From the NCBI GenBank assembly GCA_963681505.1, contig OY811990.1, positions 3,425,165 to 3,489,164 on the forward strand: 64,000 bases of DNA, written 5' to 3'. The notes beneath the pieces were generated by a model. The model worked only from the letters and a program-made list of their open reading frames with translations. It did no database searches and was not told the DNA's origin. This document shows positions 3,042 to 44,163 of this stretch, piece by piece (position 1 is the stretch's first letter; each line of letters opens with the position of its first letter). Origin of the DNA: Eunapius fragilis (Eukaryota; Porifera; Demospongiae; Spongillida; Spongillidae). The translations under genes and the position numbers were made by a program.

Positions 3042-5479
3042 CTACACAAAATACTTAAATACAGTGTGTTCTGTATGGTTGGCTACATACAGACTACCTC
3101 TAATAGGATCCAGAGCAACACCATAGGGTTCACTGAGATTACCAACTGTGTGGATCTTGTTTCCCTGAGGATCGAAGATGGCAAGAGAATTGCCACTGCA
3201 CTCACAGACAAGGCTGTAACCTTCTTCATCAATTGCTATTCCAGTTGGATCATTTACATCTCCATAAGATCTTACATAGGTCCCATCTGGTGTGAAGACT
3301 TTGATGGTGTCAGAATCACGAGCAGCAACATGGATGTTCCCTTGAGGGTCCAAGGCAAGACCCATTGGAACCTTAAAACCCTGAGCACCAGAGACATCAC
3401 CATTTATGGTCAATAGCCAGCTGCCATTTTCAATATTACTACCCTGTCATTGCCACTATCAGCAACAATCATCCTATCTCTTTGGTCAACAATAACTGAT
3501 TCTGGTCCGCTAAACTGTCCCTGATCTGATCCATGTTGGCCAAACTTTTGTAGGAACTGTCCTCCTGTTGTCAGCTTCTGAATGCGATGATTGCCATAGT
3601 CAGCAACATACATCACATCTCCCTTGATGGATATACCATTTGGTGCATCGAACTGACCATCACCACTCCCACCACTACCTATGGTTCTCTTCTCATGACC
3701 ACCTTTGTCAAACACATGAACCATATCATGACAATAGCTGGCTACATAGATGTCTCCACTGTCATGGATGGCAATACCTAATGGATCATCACTACAACTG
3801 ATAACTTGCTGGGGGTCACATAAGGTGCTGTAGCAAGGCCTCACATCAAGGTCATGTGGACTGCCCTGTACATGTTCACCATCCATTGTGATGAGGAGCT
3901 GGTGAGGACCAGCAGCCTGAGGGGTGAGGGTGATGGTGTAGGTACCATCTCCATGGTCCTCCACCTTTCCTGGGACAACTGCTCCATTATGTGACTTGGG
4001 CCTCAGCTCAGCCTTCACCTGCAGACCACCATATGGGTACCTCTCTCCCTCTGAGCTCTTGGTCTCCACTTTTACACTATACACCTTGTCCATCCTGGCT
4101 GCTGACTTAGAAGACCATGTGCTTTGTGATGGAGATGGGGATAAGGCCAGTACACTACCAAATATGGAGAGTTCCTTCATCAGAGAATCAGTTGGTAGCG
4201 TTGCATGTATGATACTGGACAAACTGGGAGTGAGGGATACTTTCTTCATGATGGCCTTCAGTTCATTAGGTAGAAAATCTCCAAGAGCTACCACCTCATG
4301 GTCAGTGTGGGTCTGGAGGATGTGGGAGGTCATCTCAGTGTAGCGACCAATCTCATCTTGTATCTTCACTAACTGTTCCTTCTGGAGGGACAGAGCTGTT
4401 GTCTTGAAAAGTGAAATGGCCTCCATCTCTGACAACAGTGTCTTCTTCCTTTCCTCTATGGCTTGGTGGAACTGTTCAAAGGCTTGGTTTATGAGCAGTG
4501 TGGCATTCTCTCTGGAAGTCTCAACCAGTTCAGTCATCTTGTCTTTTTCACCAATGGAACTGGTCAGCTTAGAGGCCATTTCTTGTGCAGACTCAAGTGC
4601 CTCACTCATTTCATCTCTGTGGACCTTTGCAATATGCACACCTCAGCAATCCTATGGTCATTGTGAAGAACTAGGGTGCAGCCATCACATACTAAGCACT
4701 TGCAGGTCTCACAGTAGAATTTTAAGTTTCTTGTATCATGGTGAGGTTTGTAGCAGAAATGTTCAGTTGGTATCATGATGGATGGAAGTAGTCTGACAGA
4801 CTCCTGGTCTAGTCCAACCATCTGGTGATGATGGAATATTTTACTGCTCTTGTGGTGCTCATGACAGAAGGTACAGAGGAACTGACCACATGTACAACAG
4901 AACACCACTGCAGGCCCCTTGCCCCCATCAATACAAGCATCACATGACGTTTCACCACCACTGCCAATCTTGGACATGTACCCAGCCACCTCCACCTCAA
5001 AGCCAAGATGGAGGTTCTGAGGTATAGCATTGACTCCACCCTCTGGTATGGTGATACTTCTCTGACAGGTAGGACACTCCATTTTCTGCTTGTCCCCAGT
5101 CCTTACAAGCTCTGAGCACAAACACTGCACACAGAAAGAGTGTAGACATGGAAGGATCCTAGGGTCTGTGTAGGGCTTAGAGCACAGCTGACATATGGTG
5201 TGTGGAGGAAGGCCAGATCTGTGGAACAATAAACGCGATTAGTTTTGAATTAGACAGTTTATTGCAGTCATGATTTCCAAGAGCCTAACCCATTGGTGGT
5301 CTGGTGTACCCTAGTCTACATTACTACCGAGCAGCGTGATTTAGCCAGAGCTAACTAAGCCTACTTAAAAAGAAATGGAGCTTAAAAGAGGCCTATTCAT
5401 AAATTCTTTTCACTTTAAATGACGATACTTTTTGTGCTTACTCGTTGTCTAAGTCTTCTTGCTTGCACGCTTTCAACAT
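3042..5479 (-). pseudogene. TRIM2/3-like RING/B-box/coiled-coil/filamin/NHL gene, copy 1 (two frameshifts)
   Basis: Exon 1 (5442-5479) encodes MLKACKQEDLDN and ends in a split codon at donor GTAAGC. It joins acceptor CCACAG at 5219-5220 in the frame that gives SGLPPHTICQLC. Exon 2 encodes a RING finger (CQLC...CLHSFCVQC...CPTC), two B-box-like zinc modules (CDACIDGGKGP..CCTCGQFLC and HFCYKPHH...CETCKCLVCDGC), a coiled coil (EKDKMTELVETSREN region), a filamin/ABP280 repeat (GLQVKAELRPKSH...GPHQLLITMDGEHVQGSPHD) and NHL repeats ending VFKYF. Such proteins are E3 ubiquitin ligases or RNA regulators. Against copy 2, one base is missing near 4635, where B-box 2 passes into the coiled coil, and four are missing near 3430 inside the NHL region. 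It is either a recent pseudogene or carries assembly indels. Confidence 0.8.
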
Positions 5480-6104: not shown

Positions 6105-9100
6105 GGCCACCCCTATACCTCCACACCTTGGAACTTCTCTGCCACCTTTGGGTACCACTCGGCAGCCATGTGACAGGCCTCCCCCGAGGGGACACACAGC
6201 TTCACCATGACGTTCTTCTCAGGGTTCAGAACAATCTTCTTGAAGGTGGACCCCCAGCCGTCTTGACGGGGGCATTCTTGGCCTCCCTTGGAGGCAGCTC
6301 TGACATGCGGTAAGGTTCCAGGGCACCCAAGAGGTAGTCACCCTCTACTCCCTCCCCTTACTCCTTCATACTTCAACTCTTCTCCCTCTTCCTCTTCCTC
6401 ATCTCCTCCCTCCCTCCCCTTCCCTCTCTCCTCCCCCTCTCTCATCCCTCTTCTCTCTCCTCCCTCTATCCTCTCATCTCTCCTCCCCCCCCCCTTTCAG
6501 CTACTCAGTACTGGCACAACATGGTAGCATCGGTTGCTAAGGACTTTGTCAACACTGACATTGTGTTTGCCGTTGTCAATGAGGGTGACTTCCCTGGTGA
6601 CCTGCAGATACTGGGCATGTCTGACTGGGGTGTGGACGTGGCTGTGGGCCTGTTTGCCACCAAGCCCGCCAAGTACCGCATGACTGAAGAGCTCACCCCC
6701 TCCTCCCTGCACCAGTTTGTCCAAGACTACCTCCTGGGTGACCAGGAACCTTACCTCACGTCAGAGCTGCCCCCAAGGGAGGCCAAGAATTCCCCTGTCA
6801 AGACGGTGGTGGGATCCACCTTCAAGAAGATTGTTCTGAACCCTGAGAAGAACGTCATGGTGAAGCTGTGTGTCCCCTCGGGGGAGGCCTGTCACAAGGC
6901 CGCCGAGTGGTACCCAAAGGTGGCAGAGAAGTTCCAAGGTGTGAACGACCTGGTGTTTGCTGAGATGAACGTTGGTCTCAATGACCCTCCGCTGGGTACC
7001 AAGTATGACCAACTTCCTGTCTTTTATTTCTCGGCCCGGGAGAGTGCACCGCATGCTCACCCTCCTCCCTGCACCAATGTGTCCAGGAGGAGAGATAGAG
7101 AGGAGAGAGGGGACTTCAGGAGGAGAGAAGAGAGGGAGGGAGGGTGGAGAGGGGAAAGAAGGGAGGGAGTGGAACAGAGGGAAGTGAGAGGAGGAAGGAT
7201 ATGTTGTATCAATTGAACTATTACCATCTTCCCATAACACATTGGTCGCATACCTTTGCGTCCTCCTCTGTTCCAGTTGACTTCAAAGTATGCCACCAGG
7301 AGTGGGCGGTGGGTGTACACTGTCCCCATGTTGTCCTTGGTTACCTGTCCCACCAGAGGATGAGCAGTGGAGTACATTTCACTCATGGCTGTAGCGTTGT
7401 TGGACAGGTCATGGAAGATGGTCCTACCACTCTCATACTGGGTCACCAGGTGACGTGGATGGAAGACGACTACACTGTTAAGGGGAAAACCCATATCCAT
7501 GGCGATGTCACCGTTAGTGACGTGTCCCAGCTTGATGAAGTCCCGGGCAAAGTTCCCGGACTCAATGAAGGCATCTACCAAGAGGCCCTTTGTCTCTTCA
7601 GAGAAGAAGGCCACACCTCTCGTCTCCTCTGACGATATGAAACGTTTGACCTCCTCAACTGAACTCATGAACACTGAGCTGGGACCAGCCTGTCTTTTCA
7701 TGTACTCCACAATACCTGAGGTAACAGGAGAAATGGTGACGTGGTATGGATGACACAAATCTCTATATACATATATACACAAAGGCTTGGATTTCTATGC
7801 TAGGTATCCGAAGTGTTCACAGTTTTCTTCTGCATACACCTAACTTTGCTCATTTCAAAGCTGACGTGAAATCAACTACCAATGTATGGAGTAATGGTGG
7901 TGGTGAGGATATAGCCATACATGACAGAGAGTCATAACAGGGCCATGGACTGGATAGTTTAAAAAGTGGCTCCCAACAATAGCAATACACTGGATCACCT
8001 AAGCAAAACTAACACATTCCACCAAAGAAAACCATCAGTGCAATACCATCACTATGTGTAGAAAGTACACCTTCACTATGCCTTTCACTCACACAACTTA
8101 ATTTTCCCTCCCACTTTACTCTCTCCCATCCATCTTCCCCATACCACCTCCATCCTCCCCATACCATCACCCTCCGCCCCATACCACCTTCCTCCTCCCC
8201 ATACCACCTTCCTCCTCCCCATACCACCTTCCTCCTCCCCACACCATCTCCCTCCTCCCCATACCATCTTCCTCCCTTGGGCCGGTGTAGTTGTACGTCC
8301 TCCCATGACGGAACATGTACAGTAGAGGGTACCCTGATATCCCAAACCTCTTGGCTACCTCCAGCTGGTCAGGCAGCTTCACCCTCCCCAGGAGGACTGG
8401 TGGGTCGTTGGCCAGAAGGCGCCGAGCAGCTGCTGCAAAGTGAGGCTCCAGATGTTGGCAATGAATACACCTATGGCGGGTCAATAGGAAGGAGAGGGGA
8501 GGAGGGAGGAGAGAGGAGGGAGAGGGGAGGGAGAGAGGAGGAGGGAGAAGGGTGAGGAGGGAGGAGGGAAGAGGAAGGAGGGAGAGATGCATGAGAACTA
8601 AATAGTCATGTTACTGTTAAATGCTTCAAAACATTTCCCTAGTGGTTATGTGAAGCTTGTAAGCTACAGCATCACTGAGATGGATGCATGCTAACACACA
8701 ATGTGGGCCATTTTGGGGTGGGGAGGGTGTGGGTGGGATCAACAAGCCTTTCTTAAACTTGAAATTGATAGTGTAACCTACCAAATGGGAGGTATGGGGA
8801 GGAGGGGGAGGGTGTAGGTGGAGGGGGTTATATCATGCACCATGATGATAGCACAACGTGGGGTACATGGCTGTGCAAACCTACCAATCAGCATAGAACT
8901 CCACCAGGATCAGGTCTGCTTGGTTGATGGTTGCGTCAAAGTTCTCCTGCGTCAGTTCGAGCACAACGCTTTTCCCAAGATGGCGGAGTGCCTTCTGTTG
9001 AAGCATATAGTCCACTATGCCTGCAAAGGATGAAAGCGAAGGTACACACCCAACGACTAGCGCTGTCCCTCCGAGGGGAGGAGGGGGGAGAGGAGGAGGA

Positions 9101-9349
9101 GGAGAGGCAAACCTTGCGCTTCCTTGTCTTCGTTAGGACCGTCGTAGTTAAACACTTGCTCCTTCCTAAACACCTTCAGGGTGGGGACCTGGGCGATGTT
9201 GTACTTCTTCTTCAACGTGGTCTCCGTGCTGGTGTCCACTCGCGCCAGCCGCACTCCCCTGGGAGCTAGCTCTCTGGCCGCCTCCTTGAGGATACGGTCC
9301 AGCGAATGGCAGTGTGCGCACCTGCAGGACAGAGCCAGCGTGACGTCAT

Positions 9350-9380
<31 letters not shown>

Positions 9381-9575
9381 AGGACGCCTGTGTACGTGCC
9401 CACTAGGGACTGTAGAAGTCGACAAGCATGATTTCGGTTTCTTCACGATGTCGTCAAAGTCGCCGTCGTGAAGGTTCAACACCACGTCCGCAGGCTCTGG
9501 GTCGTCGCAGAGAGCGGCATGAAAGCAGCAGACAGCTGCTACTGCTAACAGCGCGCATCGAGTCTTGCAAACCAT
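6105..9575 (-). pseudogene. PDIA4: PDIA4-like copy B, with a frameshifted first exon and an inverted 3' exon
   Basis: Tandem duplicate of copy A. Exons at about 9410-9575, 9113-9321, 8885-9020, 8265-8470 and 7254-7725 match copy A. The last carries the b/b' region (SSVEEVKRFIS, FHPRHLVTQYESGRTIFHDL, NWNRGGRK). Exon 1 lacks one A in the KKTEIM region, and its donor has changed from TG|GTGAGC to TA|GTGGGC. The next exon (TQYWHNMVASVAKDF onward) should follow below 7254 on the minus strand but lies on the plus strand at 6501-7045, behind its own CCTTTCAG acceptor. A partial minus-strand copy sits at 6105-6347. The rearrangement makes an ordinary full-length product impossible from this locus as assembled. 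Confidence 0.8.
6501..7050 (+). pseudogene. Inverted PDIA4 b'/a' exon of copy B
   Basis: An open plus-strand exon reads ATQYWHNMVASVAKDF, then GFPGDLQILG-like and KTVVGSTFKKIVLNP text, then the a' thioredoxin region VKLCVPSGEACHKAAEW, KFQGVNDLVFAEMN and YDQLPVFYFS. PDIA4 a' domains normally have APWCGHC at this place. Here the first active-site cysteine is gone (VPSGEAC). It is in the opposite orientation to the rest of the gene. The 3' flank at 7053-7090 repeats a piece of the same exon (compare 6690-6725), marking the rearrangement joint. Confidence 0.8.
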
Positions 9576-10374
9576 CTCACTTTACCCTTGTTACGGGATG
9601 ATAACACATTACAGTTCGATTCAGGACTGAAACTTTTTGGTTGTTTATGTGCGATAAACTACGAATAATCTACGGAGGTATCCAGAGTCAATAATGTCCG
9701 TATTGATTAATTAAAATGTAAAATTATTTATTCTGACCAATTGATGAGCCAGCTGATCGTGATCACTTCATACATAGCCCATATCTGGGACATTCCCTCT
9801 TCAACATACCTTACCCCAACCCCTGTGTAATTCTGTGGTCAACTGTAATTGATGCTGGGTAAACTTCCCATCCCAGTTGGCCAAACTTTTTTAGGTGCTG
9901 TCCCCCAGGCCAGTTGCCATCAGCTTCTGAATGCGATCTTTGCCACATCTCCCTTGATAGATATACCACACGGCTCAGTGAACTGACCATCATACTCCAA
10001 TTGATATCCATGCGGCCCACCCTGATCAACGAATGATCAATGCCATATCTGCAGGCTACCTAATTATATCACAATGACATTATATACCACCAGATGGACC
10101 ACCTTATGCTTCACATCGTGGTTATGAGTATCACCACACGAGTTTCCAAATGAACATATTCCTTGATCCAGGTAGCAGCATCCACCATTCATTGTAAACC
10201 ATATTGTATGGTGTGATGATTTGAAAGAGAAATTACTGACTTGGAAAAGTTCTGGTCAATGGATGACCATTGCATGCAGTAAGGTTTTATGATGAATGAA
10301 TTTAAACCCAACATCTTGTAGCTCACTTAAAAATGATTTGACGCCACTTTAATTAAATCATGATTATATCACTA
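9576..10374 (-). pseudogene. Duplicated TRIM-NHL relic upstream of PDIA4 copy B
   Basis: Counterpart of the relic at 2168-3041. The minus strand still shows HLKKFGQLG from an NHL repeat near 9880 and filamin-end-like sequence near 10110. It is interrupted and has no usable reading frame. 9576-9700 lacks homology to copy A in part and holds nothing recognisable. Confidence 0.45.
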
Positions 10375-12809
10375 CTACTCAAAATACTTAAATACAGTGT
10401 CTTTTGCATAGTTGGCTACATATAGACTACCACGTATAGGATCCAGAGCAACACCACTGGGTTCATTGAGATTGCCAACTGAGTGGATCTTGTTTCCCTG
10501 AGGATCAAAGATGGAGAGACAATTGCCACTGCACTCACAGACAAGGCTGTAACCTTCTTCATCAATTGCTATTCCAGTTGGACCCTTTATATCTCCATAT
10601 GATCTGACATAGGTCCCCTCTGGTGTGAAGACTTTGATGGTATTAGAACCATTGGCTGCAACATGGATGTTCCCTCGAGGGTCCAAGGCAAGACCATGTG
10701 GACCCTTAAAGCCCGGAGCACCAGAGACATTACCATTTATGGTCAATAGCCAGCTACCATTTTGATCCAATATTACTACCCTGTCATTGCCACAATCAGC
10801 AACAATCATCCTATCTCTTTGGTCAACAATTACTGATTCTGGGGAGTTAAACTGTTCCAGACCTGATCCATGTTGGCCAAACTTTTGTAAGAACTGTCCT
10901 CCTGTTGTCAGCTTCTGAATACGATGATTGCCCCAATCAGCAACATACATCACATCTCCCTTGATGGATATACCATTTAGCTTACTGAACTGACCATCAC
11001 CACTCCCACCACTACCTATGGTTCTCTTCTTCTTATGACCCCCTTTGTCAAACACATGAACCCTATCATGACAATAGCCGGCTACATAGATGTCTCCACT
11101 GCCATGGATGGCAATACCTAATGGTCCGTCACAGCTGATAACTTGCTGGGGGCTACATAAGGTGCTGTAGCTAGGCCTCACATCAAGGTCATGAGGACTG
11201 CTCTGTACATGCTCACCATCCATTGTGATGAGGAGCTGGTGAGGACCAGCAGCCTGAGGGGTAAGGGTGATGGTGTAGTTACCATCTCCATGGTCCTCCA
11301 CCTTTCCTGGGACAACTGCTCCATCATGTGACTTGGGCCTCAGCTCAGCCTTCACCTGCAGACCACCATATGAGTACCTCTCTCCCTTTGAGCTCTTGGT
11401 CTCCACTTTTACACAATACACCTTGTCCATCCTGGCTGCTGATGTAAAAGACCATATGATTTGTGATGGAGATGGGGATAAGGCCAGTACATTACCAAAT
11501 ATGGAGAGTTCCTTCATCAGAGAATCAGTTGGTAGGGTCACATGTATGTCACTGGACTCACTGGGAGTGAGGGATACTTTCTTCAGGGTGGCCTTCAGTT
11601 CAGTGGGTAGCAGATCTCCAAGAGCTACCACCTCATGGTCAGTGTGGGTCTGGAGGATGTGGGAGGTCATCTCAGTGTAGCGACCAATCTCATCTTGTAT
11701 CTTCACTAACTGTTCCTTCTGGAGGGACAGAGCTGTTGTCTTGGAGAGTGAAATGGCCTCCATCTCTGACAACAGTGTCTTCTTCCTTTCCTCTATGGCT
11801 TGGTGGAGCTGTTCAAAGGCTTGGTTTATGAGCAGTGTGGCATTCTCTCTGGAAGTCTCAACCAGTTCTGCCATCTTGTCTTTGTCACTAATGGCACTAG
11901 TCAGCTTTGAGGTCATTTCTTGTGCACACACGTGCCTCACTCATTTCATCTCTGTGGACCTTTGCAATATTGCACACCTCAGCAATCCTACGGTCATTGT
12001 GAAGGACTAGGGTGCAGTCATTGCAGTCCAAGCACTGGCAGGTCTCAGAGTAGAATTTTAAGTTTCTTGTAACATGGTGAGGTTTGTAGCAGAAATGTTC
12101 AGTTGGCGTAATGATGGATGGAAGTAGTCTGACAGACTCCTGGTCTAGTCCAACTATCTGGTGATGATGGAAAATTTTATTACCTCTGTGGTACTCATGA
12201 CATAAGGTACAGAGGAACTGACCACATGTACAACAGAACACCACTGCAGGCCCCTTGCCCCCATCAATACAAGCATCACATGACTTTTCACCACCACTGC
12301 CAATCTTGGACATGCACCCAGCCACTACCACCTCAAAGCCAAGATGGAGGTTCTGAGGTATAGCATTGACTCCACCCTCTGGTATGGTGATATTTCTCTG
12401 ACAGGTAGGACACTCCATCTTCCGCTTATCCCCAGTCCTTATTAGCTCTGAGCACAAACACTGCACACAGAAAGAGTGTAGACATGGAAGGATCCTAGGG
12501 TCTGCGTAGGGCTTAAAGCACAGCTGACATGTGGCGTGTGGAGGAAGGCCTGATCTGTGGAACAATAAACGCGAGAATTAGACAGTTTATTGCAGTCATG
12601 ATTTCCCAGAGCCCTAACCCATTGGTGGTCTGGTGTACCCTAGTCTACATACTACCGAGCAGCGTTTAGTCGCGTGATTTAGCCAGAGCTAACTAAGTCT
12701 AAAATGGAGCTGAAAAGAGGTCTATTCATAAATTCTTTTCCACTTTAAATGACGATACTTTTTGTGCTTACTTGCTGTCTAAGTCTTCTTGCTTGCACGC
12801 TTTCAACAT
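10375..12809 (-). pseudogene. TRIM2/3-like RING/B-box/coiled-coil/filamin/NHL gene, copy 2 (one frameshift)
   Basis: Same architecture as copy 1. Exon 1 at 12772-12809 (MLKACKQEDLDS, donor GTAAGC) joins acceptor CACAG at 12555-12556 in frame, giving SGLPPHATCQLC. RING, two B-boxes, coiled coil, filamin repeat (GLQVKAELRPKSHDG) and six or so NHL repeats (KLNGISIKGDVMYVADWGNHRIQK and similar, each seen as VADxGNxR) follow to the stop at 10375. Relative to copy 1, two bases are missing near 11930, at the start of the coiled coil. It is otherwise open where copy 1 is broken. This could be a dying duplicate or an assembly error, since the domain order and NHL sequence are well kept. Confidence 0.8.
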
Positions 12810-28600: not shown

Positions 28601-29110
28601 TGCCTGTGATTGCAACTACATAGTAGCTAGAAACTCTATATATAGTGCCATTAAAAGCATCACTTAGGAGGACGATAGCCTTGATTACTTGGTGTCACCT
28701 GATCCAACTCTGTTGGACAGAAGAGTGTGGAAATAGTGAAGATGACAATTGGGAAGAGAATGAGGATGGTGAGAAGGTTTGGACGTCTGAAGTTACCAAG
28801 TATGCGTATGACATTATTCTACACATGATCACTGGTGTCTATACCGTGCATTTTTCTATGCCATAAATATTGGGCTACAAGTGGCTTTGCAAGACAATCT
28901 TAATAATGAACAGTGAATTTGGGTAGTATTTCTCGATCATCAGAAACACAGCTTATGACTGATAAAATGCCTTAAGTTCAAATCAAACTATAGTCACTAT
29001 ATATCTACAAGCAGCTACAGCAAACCATTCTGCATGTCCAAAAGGCTCCTTGACCGTTTCTGAGCCTGTATAGATGACGTGGTTTTATACATGAAAATAC
29101 ACATTACTCA
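28601..29110. other. Downstream flank of the microexon gene
   Basis: A plus-strand open frame at 28645-28866 (acidic middle NSEDDNWEENEDGE) has no recognised family. For the minus-strand microexon gene, this is where a terminal exon and 3' UTR would lie. No clear AATAAA was seen on the minus strand. Confidence 0.35.
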
Positions 29111-32100
29111 AACTTACAGTCATCACTATGGTGGTCATGTTAATGGTGTAGAGCATAGTAGCAAAACAAAATAGCATGACAGTATAATACATGAATTATA
29201 CAAATAACTTGACTTGAAACTTACCGGCTTCAGTATTGCACATCCATGGTGGCAAGAAATTATTGTTAGTTATATTGAAGTGCAATGAGAAATGCAGTCA
29301 TTGATACTTACGCACTACATTGTACACAGTGGCATCCATAATAATAAGGGATAAGTAGGTATGATAAAGTGGAATGCGAAAGCAACATCATTGATACTTA
29401 CACACTGCATTGTACAAAATAGTATCCATGGTGACAAGGAATAAGTGGTAAGTTAATGTACAATGGGAAATGCAAAGTTATTTACACTTACACACTGAAT
29501 TGTCCATAAAGTGTACATAGTGACAAAGAATGAGTTAATGTGCATTTGGCAATGAAACATCATATTGACACTTACATACTACAGTGTTCATAATGGTATC
29601 CATGGCATCATCAAAATAAGTAAGTACGGTAAGGTGCAATGGGAAATGTAACATCATTGATACTTACAAGCTGCATAGTTCATGGTCGTATCCATGGCAA
29701 CATCAAAATAAGTAGGTATGGTAATGTGCAATGGGAAATGCACCATCATTGATACTTACAGGCTGCATTGTTCATAGTAGCATCCATAGAAACAGAGAAT
29801 ATATAGGTATGGTAAGGTGCAATGGGAAATGGAACATCATTGATACTTACACCCTGCATTGTTCATAATAGCATCCATGGCAAAAGAGAATAAGTAGTAA
29901 GGTGCAATGGGAAACGCAACATCATTGATACTTACAAGCTGCATTGTTTATATTAGTATCCATGGCAACAAAGAATAAGTATATGATAAGGTACAATAGG
30001 AAATGCAACATAATTGATACTTACACCCTGCATTGTGCATAGTAATATCCATGGCAACAGAGAATAAGTAACTATGGTAAGGTGCAATGGGAAATGCAAC
30101 ATCATTGATACTTACAATCTGCATTGTTCACAGTAGTATCCATGGCAACAGGGAATAAGTAGGTATCGTAAGGTACAATGGGAAATGCAACGTCATTGAT
30201 ACTTACACCCTACATTGTTCATAGCAGTATCCATGGCAACAGAAAATAGGTTGGTATGGTAAGGTGCAATGGGAAATGCAACATCATTGATACTTACACC
30301 CTGCATTGTTCATAGTAGTATCCATGGCAACAGAGAATAAGTAGGTATGGTAAGGTGCAATGGGAAATGCAACATCATTGATACTTACACCCTGCATTGT
30401 TCATAGTAGTATCCATGGCAACAGAGAATAAGTAGGTATGGTAAGGTGCAATGGGAAATGCAACATCATTGATACTTACAGACTACAAAGTTCATAGTAG
30501 TATCCATGGCAACAGAGAATAAGTAGGTATGGTAAGGTGCAATGGGAAATGCAACATCATTGATACTTACACCCTAGATTGTTCATAGTAGTATCCATGG
30601 CAACAGAGAATAAGTATGTATGGTAAGGTGCAATAAGAAATGCAACAGCATCGATACTTACATACTACATTGTTCGCAGTAGTATCCATGGCAACATCAA
30701 AATCAGTAGGTATGGTAAGGTGCAATGTTAAATGCAACATCATTGATACTTACAAGCTGCATTGTTCGTAGATGTATCCATGGCAATAGAGAATAAGTAG
30801 GCATGGTAAATGGGAAATGCAAAACACATGATTTTGCATATCAATGGGAAATGCAAAACACTATCTGCATTTATCCATAACAACAATAAATAAGTAGGTA
30901 TGAAGGTGCAATGGACAATGCAACATCATTGATAATTTCAATACTTACACACTGGATTGCAATAGTACCCGTGGTGACAAAGGCCGGAAAGATTGAACAT
31001 GTCAACGTGCTATGTGAAAGGTGACATCATAGATACTTACAGGCTGATTGTTCATGATGGTATCAATGGTGAAAATGAATGAGAAGACATATTAAATAAG
31101 GAAATGCAACATAGTTGATACTTACAGCCTGCGTTGTTAGGAATAGAATCCAAGGCGACAAGAATGGCAAATGAATTAAAGCACAGCATCATTGATACTT
31201 ACTTTCTGCATCATTTGTAATAGAATTGGCAAGGAATACATTTGCATTTTATTGTGCAATTTAAAAAGCAACATCACTTATACTTACGCATGACTGTGTT
31301 CATAATAGCATCCATGTTGACCAGGGTAAGTAGCCATATGATGCATGGTACAATGAGAAATGCAATGTCATTAATACTGTCTGATTAATAGCATGATATA
31401 AAAGAATGCATTTGCATATTATGGTGGAATGCAACATGATTATTGATATAAGCTGGTTTGTTTTAACATGTGTTCATGCATGGTGATAAAGCCCGGGGAT
31501 AATTAAACATGTTAAGGCAACATCACAATGCACAAGTAGAGACATGCATGTTAAGGTGCAATATGGGAAATGCAACATCTTTGATACTTACATACTAATG
31601 TTCATAATGATAACCAAGGAATAAGTAGGCATGTTAAGGTGCAATGAGAAATGCAACATCTCTGATACTCACATCCTAATGTTCATAATGATAACCAAGA
31701 AGGACAAGGAATAAGTAGGCATGTTATGGTGCAATGAGAAATGCAACATCTCTGATACTCACATCCTAATGTTCATAATGACAACCAAGAAGGACAAGGA
31801 ATATGTATAGGCGTAAATGCAACATTGATGATACTTACACGCAGCTGCATTGTTCATAGTAGTACATAAGGTGCATGATGAGTAAAAATTAGGCATGTTC
31901 TGATGTGATGGGAAATGCAACAGCATTGATACTTACAAGCTGAATTGTTCATTGTGATTTTGATGGGGAGCCGAGAAATGCGTAGAGGTACAGTATGATA
32001 AGGTGCAGTGGAAACTGTAACATGATATAATCTTACAGTCTGCAGTTGTCATGAGTTGTCCATGGTTAAGTCGGTATCATAATGTATAATCTCAAACGCA

Positions 32101-32588
32101 GCATTATTGTATACTTACGCACTGCATTGTTCAGAGTTGACAAAGAATAAGCCAACAAGCACAGTAAGGTGCAGTGTAATTGCAGAGACTTACCTTCATC
32201 TAACAATTTCATGGTGATAAGAATAATATGTCAGAATGCAAGTTACGCGATGCTATAAATGGATTATTCATTCTGACCTGGAACGTCACACTGTCAGAAT
32301 TCTTTGCCCTCAAATAGCTGATCATTTCTTCAGATACGGGTACAACTATAAATTAATACACGCCTTTACAGCACCGATCTTATTCTCTTGAATGTCGTCA
32401 CGATTATCGAATAATTCGCTGTTATCAACCCTCAGGGGCTCTTCGATATCGACCTCCTCGCTCATCTTAAATGGATCTGCTGAATACCTAAATGACGTAC
32501 GCTTACAGTCGCAAACCTCATAGTGCTTGGGACGGGCGTCAGCTAGAAGCGCCAGCAAGGTCACAAGAAGAAACAGTTCCTTCAGCAT
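29108..32588 (-). CDS. Putative secreted-protein gene with a tandem array of single-codon microexons
   Basis: Exon 1 (32370-32588) is 219 nt, exactly 73 codons: a signal peptide (MLKELFLLVTLLALLADA), then a short cysteine pair (EVCDCKR) and an acidic region (SEEVDIEEP, NRDDIQENK). It ends in phase 0 at donor GTAAAG (32364-32369). Downstream on the same strand, about 32 tandem units of roughly 91 bp each show an acceptor AG, 3 or 6 nt, then a donor GTAAG (GTGAG in two, GTATT in one). The 3- or 6-nt segments begin at 32194-32199 (ATGAAG), 32119-32121 (TGC), 32037-32039 (ACT) and end at 29225-29227 (CCG). None of the 35 codons is a stop. The last candidate acceptor (near 29127) is followed at once by TGA TGA. 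Single-codon microexons flanked by introns of about 75-100 nt would be extraordinary. I recognise no protein family. Splicing is inferred, not shown. Confidence 0.55.
29200..32205 (-). repeat. 91-bp tandem repeat array (intron plus microexon units)
   Basis: Unit length is 91 bp in the homogeneous centre (30116-30660) and 78-100 bp toward the edges. In minus-strand order, a unit holds donor GTAAGTATCAATGATG, TTGCATTTCCCATTGCACC, a CTTATTCTCTGTTGCC pyrimidine stretch, a TACTACTAT branchpoint-like word, then AACAATGCAG and the variable triplet. Units at about 30850 and 31450 have lost the donor. A few units differ only next to the triplet. Confidence 0.93.
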
Positions 32589-33320
32589 TCTTTATATTTC
32601 AGCCGGCTGTCGCAAATGTATGAAATATCACGGAAACGATTTGCTTTTTAAATTAAACGGAGGGTTATGAAACTTTTGTCACTTTTCCGCCGCACTGATC
32701 TTCAAAACCGCGGATTCTAATACAAGTCCCAAGAACCCTTACTCTGGAATAACGAAACCTTAGGCATGTAACTCACTGTATGCAGGCTGTCGTTTATCCC
32801 TACATAACAGTGTGAAACCTATTCCTTTCCCCTGATGACAATCTATATGCAGACCGCGACTCGTCCAAATACTTGATCCAATTAAATATATTTTTATGTC
32901 CGGTTGATATTATGTGGTGCGGTGCCGGTTATGTTAGTATACCAGCGCTAGCTATGATGTTGACTCCCAATCCATGCCATACTTCGTCCATAGAATAATG
33001 CATGTTTTGTTCAAACACAGATCAAAGTTTGGCTTCAACGACTAGTTTAAAATCTTCAAGCTTGCTGTTTACCAATTAAAAGCGCATAGATATACGGCAT
33101 GGAAAACAGACACCGTTCAGAGCTATAATACTCACGGGATTAATGTATCGTACGATAACTGAACAACAATGTTTACATATGAAGTGTGAAGAAGACATCT
33201 GCCACTGTTAATTTGTGGCAATGTTACCAAATTAAGGATAAATTCTTTTCTGCCCTACTTGCGGGTGCTATTATATAGGGGTGTGAATTCCTGCGTCTTA
33301 ACACCTAAGTAACACCAGCT
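32589..33320. other. Upstream flank of the microexon gene
   Basis: Probable promoter side of the minus-strand gene. TATAAAG occurs just above the ATG (about 32594), too close to act as a normal TATA box. No other gene is seen. Confidence 0.35.
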
Positions 33321-37711: not shown

Positions 37712-38862
37712 TAGCTGATATGAATAAATCAGTAACGCTTCTGTGTGCGGGGAACAGTTCTACTCATTGACAAGCGGTCATACTATTACTTCATTTCACA
37801 AAATAGAATTAAAAGAACATGAACAGACAGAACAGGAAGTGAAGTATTGGAATTCCATTTGTTTGGTGGTCATGTTGCAGGCCTCCCCCGAGGGGACACA
37901 CAGCTTCACTACGACATTCCTCTCAGGGTTCAGAACAATCTTCTTGAAGGTGGACCCCACCACCGTCTTGACGAGGGCATTCTTGGCCTCCCTTGAGGGC
38001 AGCTCTGACGTGAGGTAAGGTTCCAGGGCACCCAGGAGGTAGTCTTGGACAAACTGGTGCAGGGAGGAGGGGGTAAGCTCTTCAGTCATGCGGTACTTGG
38101 CGGGCTTGGTGGCAAACAGGCCCACAGCCACGTCCTCACCCCAGTCAGACATGCCCAGTATCTGCAGGTCCCCAGGGAAGTCACCCTGATTGGCAATGGC
38201 AAACATAATGTCAGTGTTGACAAAGTCCTTAGCAACAGATGCCACCATGTTGTGCCAGTACTGAGTAGCTAGAGGGGGGGGGGGGGGGAGGGAGGAGAGA
38301 GGAAAGGGAGGGAGGGAGAAGGGAGAGAGGGAGGAGGGAGAGAGGGAGAAGAGGGGATGGAGGGATGAGAGAGGGTTGGAGGAGAGAGGGGAGGGGGAAG
38401 AGGGGGAAGAGAGACAGGAGGAAGGGGAGGGAGTGGAACAGAGGGAAGTGAGAGGAGGAAGGATATGTTGTATCAATATAGCTATTTCCATCTTCTCGTA
38501 GCACATTGGCCGCATACCTTTATGTCCTTCTCTGTTCCAGTTGACTTCAAAGTATGCCACCAGGAGTGGGTGGTGGGTGTATACTGTCCCCATGTTGTCC
38601 TTGGTTACCTGTCCCACCAGAAGATGAGCAGTAGAGTACATTTCACTCATGACTGTAGCATTGTTGGACAGGTCATGGAAGATGGTCCTACCACTCTCAT
38701 ACTGGGTCACCAGGTGACGGGGATGGAAGATGACTACACTGTTAAGGGGAAAACCCATATCCATGGCGATGTCACCGTTAGTAACGTGTCCCAGCTTGAT
38801 GAAGTCCGGGGCAAAGTTCCCGGACTCAATGAAGGCATCTACCAAGAGGCTGTTTGAATCCA

Positions 38863-39112
38863 GAAGTCTGGCAGCGGTACCTTCCCGGTCTGTTTCAGCG
38901 TCAGTATTCATCCTCGTCCGTTTGGCATTAGCTTGTTTGATCACCCCAGGCACGCCATTTAACTCCACCAAGCCTCGCTGTTCAGTGTAATTATCTTTAA
39001 CGGACTTCAAGTGAAGTTATTGGCGTGCCTGGGGTGATCGAACAAGCTAATGCCAAACAGAGGAGGATGAATACTGACGCGCGTTCCGCCTGAAACAGAC
39101 CGGGAAGTTACC
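38863..39112. repeat. Large palindrome inside PDIA4 copy C
   Basis: The arm CCCGGTCTGTTTCAGCGTC through TTGATCACCCCAGGCACGCCA (38878-38956) is mirrored by TGGCGTGCCTGGGGTGATC through GAAACAGACCGGGAAG (39019-39104). The spacer is about 63 bp. It replaces the upstream part of the b exon. The origin is unclear; it may be a foldback element or a rearrangement scar. Confidence 0.8.
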
Positions 39113-39381
39113 GCTGTCAGACTTTCCTAGCGTATCGTTATCAGCCTCAGGTATTAACGAACATTTCCGTCCTTCGGCGATTAAAGACCCAGGCCAGGAA
39201 TAATGTTATGTTACCTCACGTGTATAAAAACCAAGTTGATTGCCTGGATCTCAGTGACATAGCGCAGAAGTTTTGATCCTCAAATGAAAGGAGAAGTACA
39301 TTTTTTGGAAAATTTTAGTAACCAAGCTAAATACACTGATTTGCATAGTTTTTTTCATTCATTGATCATTTAAATTAAAAA

Positions 39382-39384
39382 GTT

Positions 39385-39421
<37 letters not shown>

Positions 39422-39460
39422 CCTAAAATCGTTCCTACGCCACTGATATACATATACATA
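39382..39460. other. C homopolymer and hAT-like end remnant
   Basis: A run of about 33 C (39386-39418) is followed by CCTACGCCACTGA, which resembles the right terminal repeat of the hAT element at 33924-34832. The left end is not seen. Confidence 0.45.
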
Positions 39461-40879
39461 TAGGCTTGGATTTCTATGGCTGGTATCCAAAGTATTTCAC
39501 AGTTTCTTCTGCATACACCTAACTTTGCTCATTTCAAAGCTGAGGTGAAATCAACTACCAATGTTTGGAGTAATGGTGGTGGTGAGGATAGACCCATACA
39601 TGACAGAGCCATAACAGGGCCATGGACTGGATAGTTTAAAAAGTGGCTCCCAACAATGGCAATACACTGGATCACCTAAGCAAAACTAACACATTCCATC
39701 AGAGAAAACCATCAGTGCAATACCATCACTATGTGTTGAAAGTACACCTTCACTATAAGGTGTCACATTTCACTCACACAACTTAATTTTCTCTCCCACT
39801 TTACTCCATTTCGCATGCAATCTCCCTATTCCCCATACCACCTTACTCCTCCCATACCACCTCCCTCCTCCCATAACATCTCCATACCACCTCCCTCCTC
39901 CCATACCACCTTCCTCCTCCCCATACCATCTTCCTCCCTTGGGCCGGTGTAGTTGTACGTCCTCCCATGATGGAACATGTACAGTAGAGGGTACCCTGAT
40001 ATCCCAAACCCAAACCTCTTGGCCACCTCCAGCTGGTCGGGCAGCTTCACCCTCCCCAGGAGGACTGATAGGTCGTTGGCCAGAAGGCACCAAGAAGCTG
40101 CTGCAAAGTGAGGCTCCAGATGTTGGCAATGAATACACCTATGACGGGTCAATAGGGAGGAGAGGAGAGGAGGGAGGGAGAGGGGAGGAGGGAGGAGAGG
40201 GGAGGAGTGAGGGGAATGGAGAGGGAGGAGAGGGGAGGAGGGTGAGGAGGGGGAGGAGGGGGGAGGAGAGGGGAGGGGAGGGGAGGGGAGGGGAGGAGAG
40301 GGGAGGAGAGGGGAGGAGGGAGGAGTGGGGAGCCTCTCTTAACAATCCGGGTAATTTAAAGTCTTTTTGTAGCACTTACAATACATATCTATTAGCTCAT
40401 TTGATATAAGTTCTTCAAGTTCTATCATTGGCCTCCTCATCTGTTAAAGTTGTTGACATTAGCTGTAAAGATTACACTGTCTCTTCAAAATGAGGCATGT
40501 ATTTACCATCCCAAGAACATGGCCATGGTATTCATCGGTTTACAAATTCTTTTTCGTCTTTTAATTGTTGTAGTGCTTATCTTCCGATGAAGACTCAAGT
40601 ATAGTTACACGTTTTTGCATCCAAAAATGGCCATGCTCTCCTCCATTTAAAGATCACATAATTTTTTCTGTGCCATAAGGTATCTATGCTCATGTTTTTT
40701 CAGAGGGACAGCGCTAGTCATTGGGTGTGTACCTTCATGTTTGTCCTTTGCAGGCTTAGTGCACTATATGCTTCAACAGAAGGCACTCCGCCATGCTCGA
40801 ATTGAAACAGGAGAACTTTGACACAACCATCAACCAAACAGACCTGATCCTGGTGGAGTTCTATGCTGATTGGTAGGTT

Positions 40880-42689: not shown

Positions 42690-44163
42690 TATCTTTTTTG
42701 ATTGATTGATTGATTGATTGATTGCATACATATAAACAGACAAACATATGCAAAAAGGCAAGTAGTGGCACGATGTGTACGTGCACTTACAAACTGCCTA
42801 AACATGGGAGGGATATAACATACAATAGGGTGAAAGGTCCACAGATCTAAGTCGGGTACGAAAAACTGTAATGTTCAATGAAGTGACAACATCTTGCGGT
42901 AAGTGGTTCCATATAGGTACCACACGTTCTGTGAAAAAATGCGCTCGGAATGCATGATAGGGTAAATGTTTGGATCGCAGGATACAAGAATGACCTCGGA
43001 TGGAATACGGCCTAGCCGGTTTGGTGAAAAAACTCTCAAAAGGTAAATCAACCAGGTTATTATAGATCTTGTAGCACATGACAAGGTCGTAGAAGACTCT
43101 CCTGTACTCTAAGGACTGTAAACCCAGGTTCGCAAGGCGATCATCATAATCCATATATGGTGTACCAGCACGTTTGATAATGGCACGAGTGAAAAATCTC
43201 TGAACACGTTCAATACATTGAATATCTTTATGGAACCAGGGATTCCAAACTTGGGTATTACTTTCCAGAAGGGGACGAACATACACCTTATAAAGACGCA
43301 CAAGGAGAGACACATCGTTAGAATGAAAGCATTTTAAGAGAAGACAGCTCCTATTGAAAGCCATGGAAGCAATGTTTGAGCAGTGTAAGGTCTGAATTCA
43401 AACACACCCCAAGATCTCTTATAGATGATACGAATTGCAAAGGAATACCAGAAAGTGAGTAAGGTGAAGTAGGCTCATAACCACGAGAACCAAAGGAAAT
43501 GACAGAGCACTTGGAATAAGCAACAGTCAGTTGCCATGTCTTGGACCATGAACAAAATTGATTTAAGGATTGTGTAAGTGGTGTATTTTGATTTTCAGTA
43601 TAACCAAGATACAGTTTTGTGTCATCGGCAAAGATTTTAATGCCAGCTGGAGATTGGACATGGTTAGGAAGGTCATTGACATATATCAGAAACAAGAGAG
43701 GACCAAGGACAGAACCCTGAGGTACACCACTGGTGATGGATTTAGGAGATGATACATCAAGTCCTACATATACACATTGTGTGCGGTCGTTTAAAAAGGC
43801 TCTTATCCACTGAAGCAAGTTTGATTTAAAGCCATAAGCCTCAACCTTTAGCAATAATTTCGAGTGGGAGACAGTGTCAAAGGCCTTAGCAATATCAGTA
43901 TACACAACATCCACCTTCATGCCATTGTCAACATTCAATGTCCAATTGTTCAGAGTTATCAGTAACTGTGTACAAGCAGAACGGCGAGCGAGGAAACCAA
44001 ACTGATCCTGTGAGATAAGATTATGAGTACGAAGGAAGGATATCATAGAAGATGATATAATACTTTCCATAACTTTACAAAGGATACACGTTTGTGAGAT
44101 AGGTCTATAGTTACTGGGCTGTTTTCGTGAACCCTTTTTAAAGACAGGACATCTTATTATATT
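42690..44163 (-). mobile_element. Non-LTR retrotransposon (LINE, CR1/L2/Jockey-like), 5' truncated
   Basis: The minus strand encodes reverse transcriptase motifs in order: CPVFKKGSRKQPSNYRPIS, DQFGFLARRSAC, VYTDIAKAFDTVSH, GVPQGSVLGPLLFLIYVNDL and the catalytic FADDTKLY, then the thumb region. A second frame (42798-43364) carries on with YKVYVRPLLESNTQVWNP and the C-terminus. One frameshift near 43360 separates the two frames. The 3' end is a CAATCAAT microsatellite (42698-42724), as in many CR1/L2-type tails. The 5' end is cut at about 44163. Confidence 0.88.

Follow-up and report, generated by a model that had tools for sequence, protein, structure and literature searches.

Chains of single-codon exons as the putative coding body of a family of cysteine-rich peptides in the freshwater sponge Eunapius fragilis

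Recursive splice sites (ratchet points) consist of AG|GT with a zero-length exon, and conotoxin-like precursors combine a conserved signal peptide with a variable mature part that contains fixed cysteines and shows an excess of replacement changes. The exons of schistosome micro-exon genes (MEGs) are given as 6-36 bp (PMC5825161), whereas the internal exons of aphid bicycle genes are described as starting almost all in phase 2, with approximately 17 exons per gene on average (PMC9168663). Ultra-short microexons of 1-15 nt, including the 1-nt exon of APC11, are reported from plants, where spliceosomes can include exons of 1-3 nt, and sequential intron removal has been suggested together with GTRAGT donors at the 1-nt exon of VPS55 (PMC4674806, PMC8831610). 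According to one of these reports, both splice sites can hardly be bound together at a 1-nt exon, and intron definition and recursive splicing are suggested there (PMC4674806). Here we describe an array of single-codon exons on the minus strand (29225-32199) of a 64,000-nt stretch of the E. fragilis genome (assembly GCA_963681505.1, contig OY811990.1, positions 3,425,165 to 3,489,164; hereafter the window). With a probability of roughly 0.9, these units are real exons, which would form the coding body of a large sponge gene family and be spliced in turn into rapidly evolving cysteine-rich peptides. Exon lengths, phase, retained AG and GT dinucleotides, cysteine constraint, diversification and family size can be read from the genomic sequence itself; we infer that the genes are transcribed and their exons spliced in order, and that the products are secreted and function as peptides.

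The minus strand of the window was read directly between 28500 and 33600 and then scanned for AG-Nk-donor units. The scan recovered 31 non-overlapping AG-(N3|N6)-(GTAAG|GTGAG) units (28 of 3 nt and three of 6 nt), two of them with GTGAG donors, and a 32nd unit with a GTATT donor (31378-31380) brings the array to 29 units of 3 nt and three of 6 nt. This reproduces both the unit count and the donor tally of a preliminary description of the locus, as well as its statement that the 35 codons include no stop. Two of the 6-nt units lie where that description had placed them (32194-32199 and 31288-31293), and the third, reported at 31849-31854, is located at 31839-31844. The 18 nt upstream of the acceptor are free of AG in 31/31 units, as had been claimed; TACTAC, said to precede each AG, occurs within 40 nt upstream in 7 of the 31, and looser branch-like words occur in 19. 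AG-N3-GTRAG was observed 28 times in the array; in 300 dinucleotide shuffles it averaged 0.08 and never exceeded 1. Other spacings of AG-Nk-GTRAG are absent (k = 1, 2, 4, 5, 7 and 9-12) or rare (three at k = 6; one at k = 8, the terminal exon). Each 91-bp unit comprises an intron of about 88 nt (median 88 nt) and a one-codon exon, and the central units are tandem 91-bp repeats with 87% matches. The encoded residues are MK C T L LR D D Y (T) SC K A P C L Y G S G G G I G L G P L Y C C C P. The observation made in the preliminary description is thus confirmed.

The genome searched for relatives comprises 218.9 Mb in 24 contigs, one of which (C24; 28,504 bases) was taken as the mitochondrial genome. 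Counting the one in the window, contig C20 carries nine full-length copies of the exon-1 region, the signal-peptide part of which also matches elsewhere. A 72-base signal-peptide query returned 44 candidates, and all 40 that were scored matched, which is a lower bound; exon-1 matches are spread over C1, C3, C6, C7, C11, C12, C13, C19, C20, C21 and C22. The window and 27 other loci taken from these matches were examined, some of which end at the edge of the retrieved stretch (L011). In the window and in 26 of the 27 other loci, i.e. at 27/28 exon-1 loci, one-codon phase-0 exons form a chain behind a signal-peptide-like exon, and a hydrophobic N-terminus (MLKELALLVTLLALFADA), a putative signal peptide, is kept across the paralogues. 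Four further arrays were fetched by motif alone (L030, L031, L033 and L034, with 18, 21, 11 and 19 exons, respectively; 65 of the 69 have a length divisible by three). Two of them (L033 and L034) contain a diverged signal-peptide-like frame upstream (MLREVALLLTLLVLFADARP... and MIKQLAILAALLAALFAAVDA...), and no such frame was recognised upstream of L030 and L031. A fifth stretch, L032, contains one unit and was checked only for close exon-1 words.

A unit profile covering 36 nt upstream and 10 nt downstream was trained on 494 3-nt units, with AG and GTAAG fixed by the training rule. Outside the array, the window holds a single profile candidate above the same score. Exon positions 1 and 2 contribute little to the profile (0.04 and 0.13 bits), compared with 0.62-1.25 bits at positions -10 to -3 and 1.07-1.21 bits at +6 to +10, neighbouring positions that this rule left unconstrained. 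When exon length was left free between 1 and 18 nt, the chain search across the 28 loci, 27 of which have arrays, assigned a multiple of three to 688 of 699 exons: 650 of 3 nt, 23 of 6 nt, 12 of 9 nt and one each of 12, 15 and 18 nt. The remaining 11 exons are 5, 7, 8, 13 or 17 nt long; three of 8 nt and four of 17 nt are terminal exons, six of which contain an in-frame stop, and in the seventh (L026) the stop falls in the next exon. The shortest exon admitted in the chain was 1 nt, and an AG that runs straight into GTAAG is rare in the window array. A leave-one-subfamily-out chain with lengths of 1-30 nt, run on 27 loci (L019 not entered), gave 670 multiples of three among 684 exons, 631 of which measure exactly 3 nt. 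Furthermore, the pattern AATGCAG-Nk-GTAAGTATCA occurs genome-wide 411 times with N3, once with N4, never with N5 and three times with N6, and the reversed-pattern control returned 0 for each.

Concatenated 3- and 6-nt microexons contain one stop among 696 codons in phase 0, compared with 10/669 in phase 1 and 76/669 in phase 2; these counts leave out exons longer than 6 nt, two of which (AAATAAG.. in L024 and AAATGAGAG in L027) contain a stop and look like terminal exons. From position-wise composition, 17.7 stops would be expected among the 650 triplets and one is seen; it falls about 2.7 kb past the CCC end of L028, where the sequence is degenerate. Triplets of the form TGN are predominantly cysteine codons (83 TGT and 36 TGC, together 119), with five TGG and one TGA. 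Among the 650 3-nt exons, the third base is T in 68%, and ATG is absent.

The predicted mature parts have a common cysteine frame, as in the window (MKCTLLRDDYSCKAPCLYGSGGGIGLGPLYCCCP), L026 (CSWKQPR(L)C.RPCRIV...VKLCCC) and L018 (CHTRPACPLSGNCRSGVKIGGQTYCCC), and C57, C60 and C79-C81 (numbering of the first member) are invariant among six hand-picked aligned members. In the strict held-out chain, which misses weak-scoring units, CC is present in 19 of 27 loci and CCC in 8; L024, L027, L029, L036 and others may lack the cysteine frame. The predicted proteins are approximate, since the greater part of exon 2 is missing from the L022 model and it is uncertain where L018 ends. They gave no Pfam match below E 0.17 and no significant match in a PDB profile search (UspA1, E 1.9; hongotoxin 1, E 5.8). 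In L024, the array comprises 51 single-codon exons, in which the codon-order blocks DPSKVIN and FCPPDK each occur twice; these peptide repeats were apparently made by block duplication of one-codon exons.

Substitution patterns were compared in three groups of four close paralogues, keeping microexons with alignable flanks (25/29, 15/25 and 19/25) and with sites defined in one member. Donor GT varies in none of 118 columns and acceptor AG in two of 118, and 198/1469, 82/847 and 259/1210 intron columns are variable in the three groups, respectively. Cysteine codons among the kept microexons change only between TGT and TGC, i.e. synonymously. In two groups, exon positions 1 and 2 vary more than introns (13/30 vs 82/847, P 3e-6; 21/40 vs 259/1210, P 2e-5). 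When divergence was counted over all ordered pairs per group, without the alignable-flank filter, the donor side proved slow (0-0.004 for GT and 0.019-0.038 for +3 to +10). Adjacent units within an array, which are not independent of each other, differ in their codon in 36 of 44 cases in which the flanks are at least 93% identical (5.6 expected), and never synonymously. In 62 adjacent pairs with flanks at least 90% identical, exon bases 1, 2 and 3 differ in 0.73, 0.61 and 0.35 of pairs, with maxima of 0.16 at -35 to -1 and 0.15 at +3 to +44, the low flank values being partly a result of how the pairs were chosen. Since introns can be kept uniform by gene conversion or unit turnover even as selection separates codons, we read this triplet divergence as diversifying selection combined with intron homogenisation, with no proof of targeted mutation; cysteine codons appear to be under purifying selection and the other codons diversified. 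Lengths in multiples of three, few stops, synonymous-only cysteine changes in the aligned groups and retained AG and GT support the proposal of the preliminary description that the triplets behave as phase-0 coding exons behind a signal-peptide-like exon, and its overall interpretation is partly supported.

The gene model upstream of the array was obtained by comparing loci by eye and is in agreement with models from Ephydatia muelleri. A single first exon of exactly 73 codons ending in phase 0, as initially proposed, is probably wrong; paralogues and E. muelleri models suggest three exons ending in phases 0, 1 and 0. In the family consensus, exon 2 ends in phase 1 at G|GTAAG and exon 3 (AA ATG ATG ATC AGC TAT TTG AGG GCA AAG..CAG) ends in phase 0. 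The E. muelleri model P0134 joins ..RPQPSK to LKDTLIEMSDEVEENSDSLTNSNDILE and EMIVSYLRAKNAGSLK, and P0144 is an unspliced frame that retains 17 codons of intron 1. This intron stretch contains stops in L017, L024 and L026; it is in frame in the window copy, where it may therefore be retained. A cryptic G|GTGCTG 9 nt downstream of the lost exon-2 donor of the window is a possible substitute that would keep phase 1. Exon-3-like residues are present in P0134, P0135, P0137, P0143 and P0153. Members differ in detail: L026 passes from exon 2 directly to the first triplet, and P0133 does not have the ISYLRAK part; L022 has about 0.9 kb extra between exon 1 and the first triplet compared with L026. 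In P0143, P0148 and P0153, the end of the exon-3 region is followed by one residue and then VSI.., which is what a predictor would give on reaching the first triplet and reading on through GTAAGTATC. The E. muelleri models give no direct transcript proof, because they were predicted with AUGUSTUS using RNA-seq for training (Kenny et al., 2020).

At the other end, the TGA TGA that had been noted after the last acceptor belongs to an 8-nt terminal exon, and several relatives likewise stop in phase 0 there: the stop reads TGA in the window, L013 and L014, AGA TGA in L009 and L010, and CCA TGA in L028. In L020, L021, L023 and L025 it is reached as CCA NNN AAG C(T/C)G TAA, and in L022 and L026 the stop falls in the exon after the terminal one; these assignments exclude L015-L018, for which no confident call could be made. 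The terminal exon is followed by a predicted intron in the 3' untranslated region (UTR) and then by a last exon that is similar among the copies. Reading this last exon as phase-0 coding (AQKRSRSLLDMQNGLL in the window) was rejected, as the frame is not kept in paralogues. The features of the window copy are listed in the table.

Features of the predicted gene in the window (positions are those of the window)
Feature	Position	Strand	Comparison or basis
TATA-like A+T-rich word TTTAATTTAAAAA, about 60 nt upstream of ATG; similar words in several paralogues; putative promoter	32645..32657	-	
Exon 1, signal-peptide-like, 24 codons, MLKELFLLVTLLALLADARPKHYE	32517..32588	-	exon 1 of E. muelleri P0133 and P0134 ends at the corresponding place
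Predicted intron 1, 51 nt, GTTTGC...TTTAAG	32466..32516	-	17 codons of unspliced frames P0144 and P0131 gone from P0134 and P0133
Exon 2, acidic propeptide, MSEEVDIEEPLRVDNSELFDNRDDIQE + 1 nt, phase 1	32384..32465	-	paralogue and E. muelleri comparison
Lost exon-2 donor, ATAAG for GTAAG of paralogues	32379..32383	-	comparison by eye
Exon 3, AA ATG ATC AGC TAT TTG AGG GCA AAG ... TTC CAG; enters in phase 1, ends in phase 0	32278..32327	-	
Microexon 1, 6 nt, ATGAAG (MK)	32194..32199	-	
Microexon TGC (Cys), kept in four C20 copies	32119..32121	-	paralogue alignment
Microexon CTGCGT (LR), 6 nt	31839..31844	-	
ACA unit with degenerate donor GTATT, probably decayed	31378..31380	-	
Microexon TCATGC (Ser-Cys); TCG/TCA and TGC/TGT synonymous in paralogues	31288..31293	-	paralogue alignment
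Microexon TGT, Cys of the P-C motif	30949..30951	-	
Decayed unit, AG ATA GTGTTTT	30862..30864	-	sequence reading
Microexon TGT, Cys 1 of CCC	29492..29494	-	
Microexon TGT, Cys 2 of CCC	29402..29404	-	
Microexon TGC, Cys 3 of CCC	29312..29314	-	
Final codon microexon CCG (Pro)	29225..29227	-	
Terminal exon, 8 nt, TGATGACT, immediate in-frame stop; paralogues AGATGACT, CCATGACT and 17-nt CCATTAAAGCTGTAATT	29118..29125	-	
Predicted 3' UTR intron, GTAAGTTTGA...TACAG	29066..29117	-	
Last exon, start (GCTCAGAAA...TAGTGACTATAG); alike in paralogues, reading frame not kept	28980..29065	-	

After exons 1-3, which would encode a signal peptide and an acidic propeptide, the frame would enter the array in phase 0. 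Approximately 15-50 one-codon exons would then be joined in order, with the stop provided by the terminal exon, and the product would be a secreted cysteine-framed peptide of about 25-50 residues, C..C..PC......CCC in the clearest members. As a 3-nt exon is too short for both of its splice sites to be bound together, introns would be removed one after another. This probably occurs by intron definition, whereby the introns are excised successively and the donor that follows, GTAAGTAT, is used at the end of the growing exon, so that the peptide gains one codon per splicing step. This stepwise scheme is the likely mechanism. The introns, of about 88 nt (per-locus median 82-90), suit intron definition, and the donor consensus GTAAGTAT has A at +7 with a frequency of 0.86 and T at +8 with 0.91. 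We take this consensus to be complementary to the 5' end of U1 small nuclear RNA, and the extended intron-side pairing would presumably offset the variable exon side.

Several observations weigh against this reading. A search with the concatenated predicted mature peptides found no spliced protein, and the microexon-coded region was seen in none of the 33 homologues examined (of 37 found, all named ones being from E. muelleri); the tail YCCCFRIC of P0153 is a candidate for the last exon. Retrocopy searches were also empty, although an empty answer from such searches shows little. L019 has exon 1 and no array in 9.9 kb, and it is one of two C21 matches examined out of 12, the other (L027) having an array. 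L015 and L016 look like frameshifted pseudogenes, and L020, L021, L023 and L025 on C22 contain well-formed arrays although ATTG replaces their start ATG. In the window copy, the GTAAG donor of exon 2 has become ATAAG, and at least two units are decayed (31378-31380 and 30862-30864). It may be a weak or dying, partly decayed member, and the inferred architecture therefore rests on the family and not on this copy. In the remaining paralogue group, positions 1 and 2 are not significantly raised over introns (9/50 vs 198/1469, P 0.40). Position 3 is variable in 3/25, 5/15 and 6/20 cases, the second of which is raised compared with introns (P 0.012), and positions 1 and 2 do not differ significantly from position 3 in any group (P 0.74, 0.75 and 0.17). 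Moreover, the region 3-20 nt upstream diverges approximately like the intron interior (0.062-0.064 vs 0.067, 0.063-0.071 vs 0.052 and 0.106-0.129 vs 0.119), so that conservation of a branch site or pyrimidine stretch is unsupported.

Since nearly all units are multiples of three in phase 0, skipping would keep the frame, and combinatorial variants have been described for schistosome MEGs (PMC5825161, PMC4350168). Heavy exon skipping, with many peptide variants per gene, is a minor possibility for the sponge genes, against which stand the cysteine order and one-to-one codon conservation in the L022/L026/L040 group and the strong donor consensus; because order and cysteines are conserved, the product is suggested to normally include most exons. 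A somewhat smaller chance is given to a decaying family, in which once-functional single-codon-exon genes are now mostly pseudogenes, the window copy included. The ATAAG donor and two decayed units of the window, the frameshifts in L015 and L016, the four ATTG starts and the missing array of L019 would fit such decay, but close paralogues have retained GT, AG and their cysteine codons, and relatives with exons 1-3 are present in E. muelleri gene models. A dedicated process that mutates only the triplet could account for units with 93-100% identical flanks whose triplets differ in 36/44 pairs, often at two or three bases, and, among pairs selected for flank similarity, for raised positions that coincide exactly with the three exon bases. 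Such targeted mutagenesis is very improbable, given that these arrays also contain conserved cysteine triplets, change is lowest at the third base (0.35 vs 0.73 and 0.61), changes within L022/L026/L040 mostly affect single bases, and gene conversion of introns together with selection suffices without a new process.

Less probable still is a recursive splicing platform, on which AG/GT pairs would strip a long intron stepwise and leave the triplets as by-products. The acceptor and donor are nearly juxtaposed and stepwise removal is plausible (PMC4674806), whereas recursive splicing in the strict sense, AG|GT with a zero-length exon, which the preliminary description had considered, does not apply to units with three bases between the sites, kept in 631 of 684 exons. 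By-products would show neither avoidance of phase-0 stops nor conservation of cysteines, and by-product recursive sites were rejected, as the triplets are constrained as codons. The least credible explanation is a plain minisatellite with chance splice-like words, which would account for the 91-bp tandem units with 87% matches and for the codon blocks repeated in some arrays. It leaves unexplained why AG and GT are kept between paralogues while intron columns vary, as well as the multiples of three, phase-0 stop avoidance and cysteine constraint. The preliminary description had named arrays in many places without a gene as a sign of a satellite; arrays do occur in many places, and 27/28 exon-1 loci examined combine them with a signal-peptide-like exon ahead, as do the diverged L033 and L034, whereas none was recognised for L030 and L031. 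A plain satellite was rejected on exon-1 context, frame and cysteines, which contradict it barring a hidden bias common to these tests.

If single-codon exons spliced in turn are real, they would set a new practical limit for split genes, with dozens of consecutive 3-nt exons at dozens of loci, and would challenge exon definition while providing a natural system in which to test intron definition and stepwise splicing. They would also offer a route by which a minisatellite can evolve a protein residue by residue, with introns as built-in controls, and point to a secreted-peptide family that sponge gene models lack; those of E. muelleri examined end at or soon after exon 3. We put at slightly below even odds the further proposal that this is a new architecture, in which the spliceosome assembles a secreted peptide residue by residue, with each mature amino acid on its own exon. 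Unit duplication would then insert one residue and unit loss delete one, selection would act on intron-insulated codons, and freshwater sponges would evolve, and perhaps combinatorially splice, a large repertoire of cysteine-framed peptides.

Elsewhere, the window contains two tandem TRIM-NHL-like genes about 7 kb apart on the minus strand (3042-5238 and 10375-12577). The first has RING, B-box, filamin and NHL domains in Pfam, and the second has 1427 protein matches, the best 120 of which include E. muelleri at 72-75% identity, one EukProt match at 47% and ENA matches of up to 88%. Repeated gene pieces resembling thioredoxin/protein disulfide isomerase (CRCAHCHSL, HRCIHCQHLEPHF) are located at 516-2034, 6338-9581 and 37796-40338, interrupted by G/A-rich minisatellites, which suggests local duplication; Thioredoxin_6 was below cut-off in the one piece that matched. 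A reverse transcriptase fragment at 42798-44163 on the minus strand (RVT_1, E 3e-30 in 43351-44163) probably represents a LINE-like element whose two frames overlap. Poly-G/poly-C tracts, 26-43 bases long and not all perfect, are found at eleven positions: 9352, 13913, 14713, 15021, 15081, 22421, 33969, 36383, 39387, 48073 and 48667. Window searches with Rfam (gathering threshold) and for tRNAs returned nothing useful to the array question.

Among the open-licence PMC matches listed, no title or abstract beginning described single-codon-exon genes, and the sponge arrays differ from plain satellites, which have no gene context or coding constraint. They resemble ratchet points in their near-juxtaposed sites and stepwise removal, and differ in keeping three bases (631/684). 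Conotoxin-like families have a similar precursor layout, but no sequence relationship was found in Pfam or PDB, and the mature part of the sponge precursors is split into single codons. The plant microexons described in the sources cited above occur singly or as two adjacent exons in conserved genes, whereas the sponge chains of dozens would form a whole peptide. Like the sponge genes, aphid bicycle genes are described as a large and strongly divergent family, whose putative effectors are encoded by numerous small exons that share one phase (PMC9168663); in contrast to their phase-2 exons, the sponge exons are in phase 0 with one codon each (stops 1/696 vs 10/669 and 76/669; terminal exons stop in phase 0). 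Schistosome MEGs share secreted products (putatively so in the sponge), tiny symmetric exons as most of the coding region, multigene families and fast evolution (PMC5825161, PMC4350168), and the comparison drawn in the preliminary description is apt as an analogy. The sponge exons are likewise symmetric and short but fall below the 6-36 bp of MEGs, 631 of 684 being 3 nt, and unlike MEGs, the sponge genes have a predicted product framed by cysteines, tandem units with introns of about 88 nt and no Pfam match below E 0.17. By analogy, the sponge system looks like one that works as schistosome MEGs do but represents a separate and more extreme invention.

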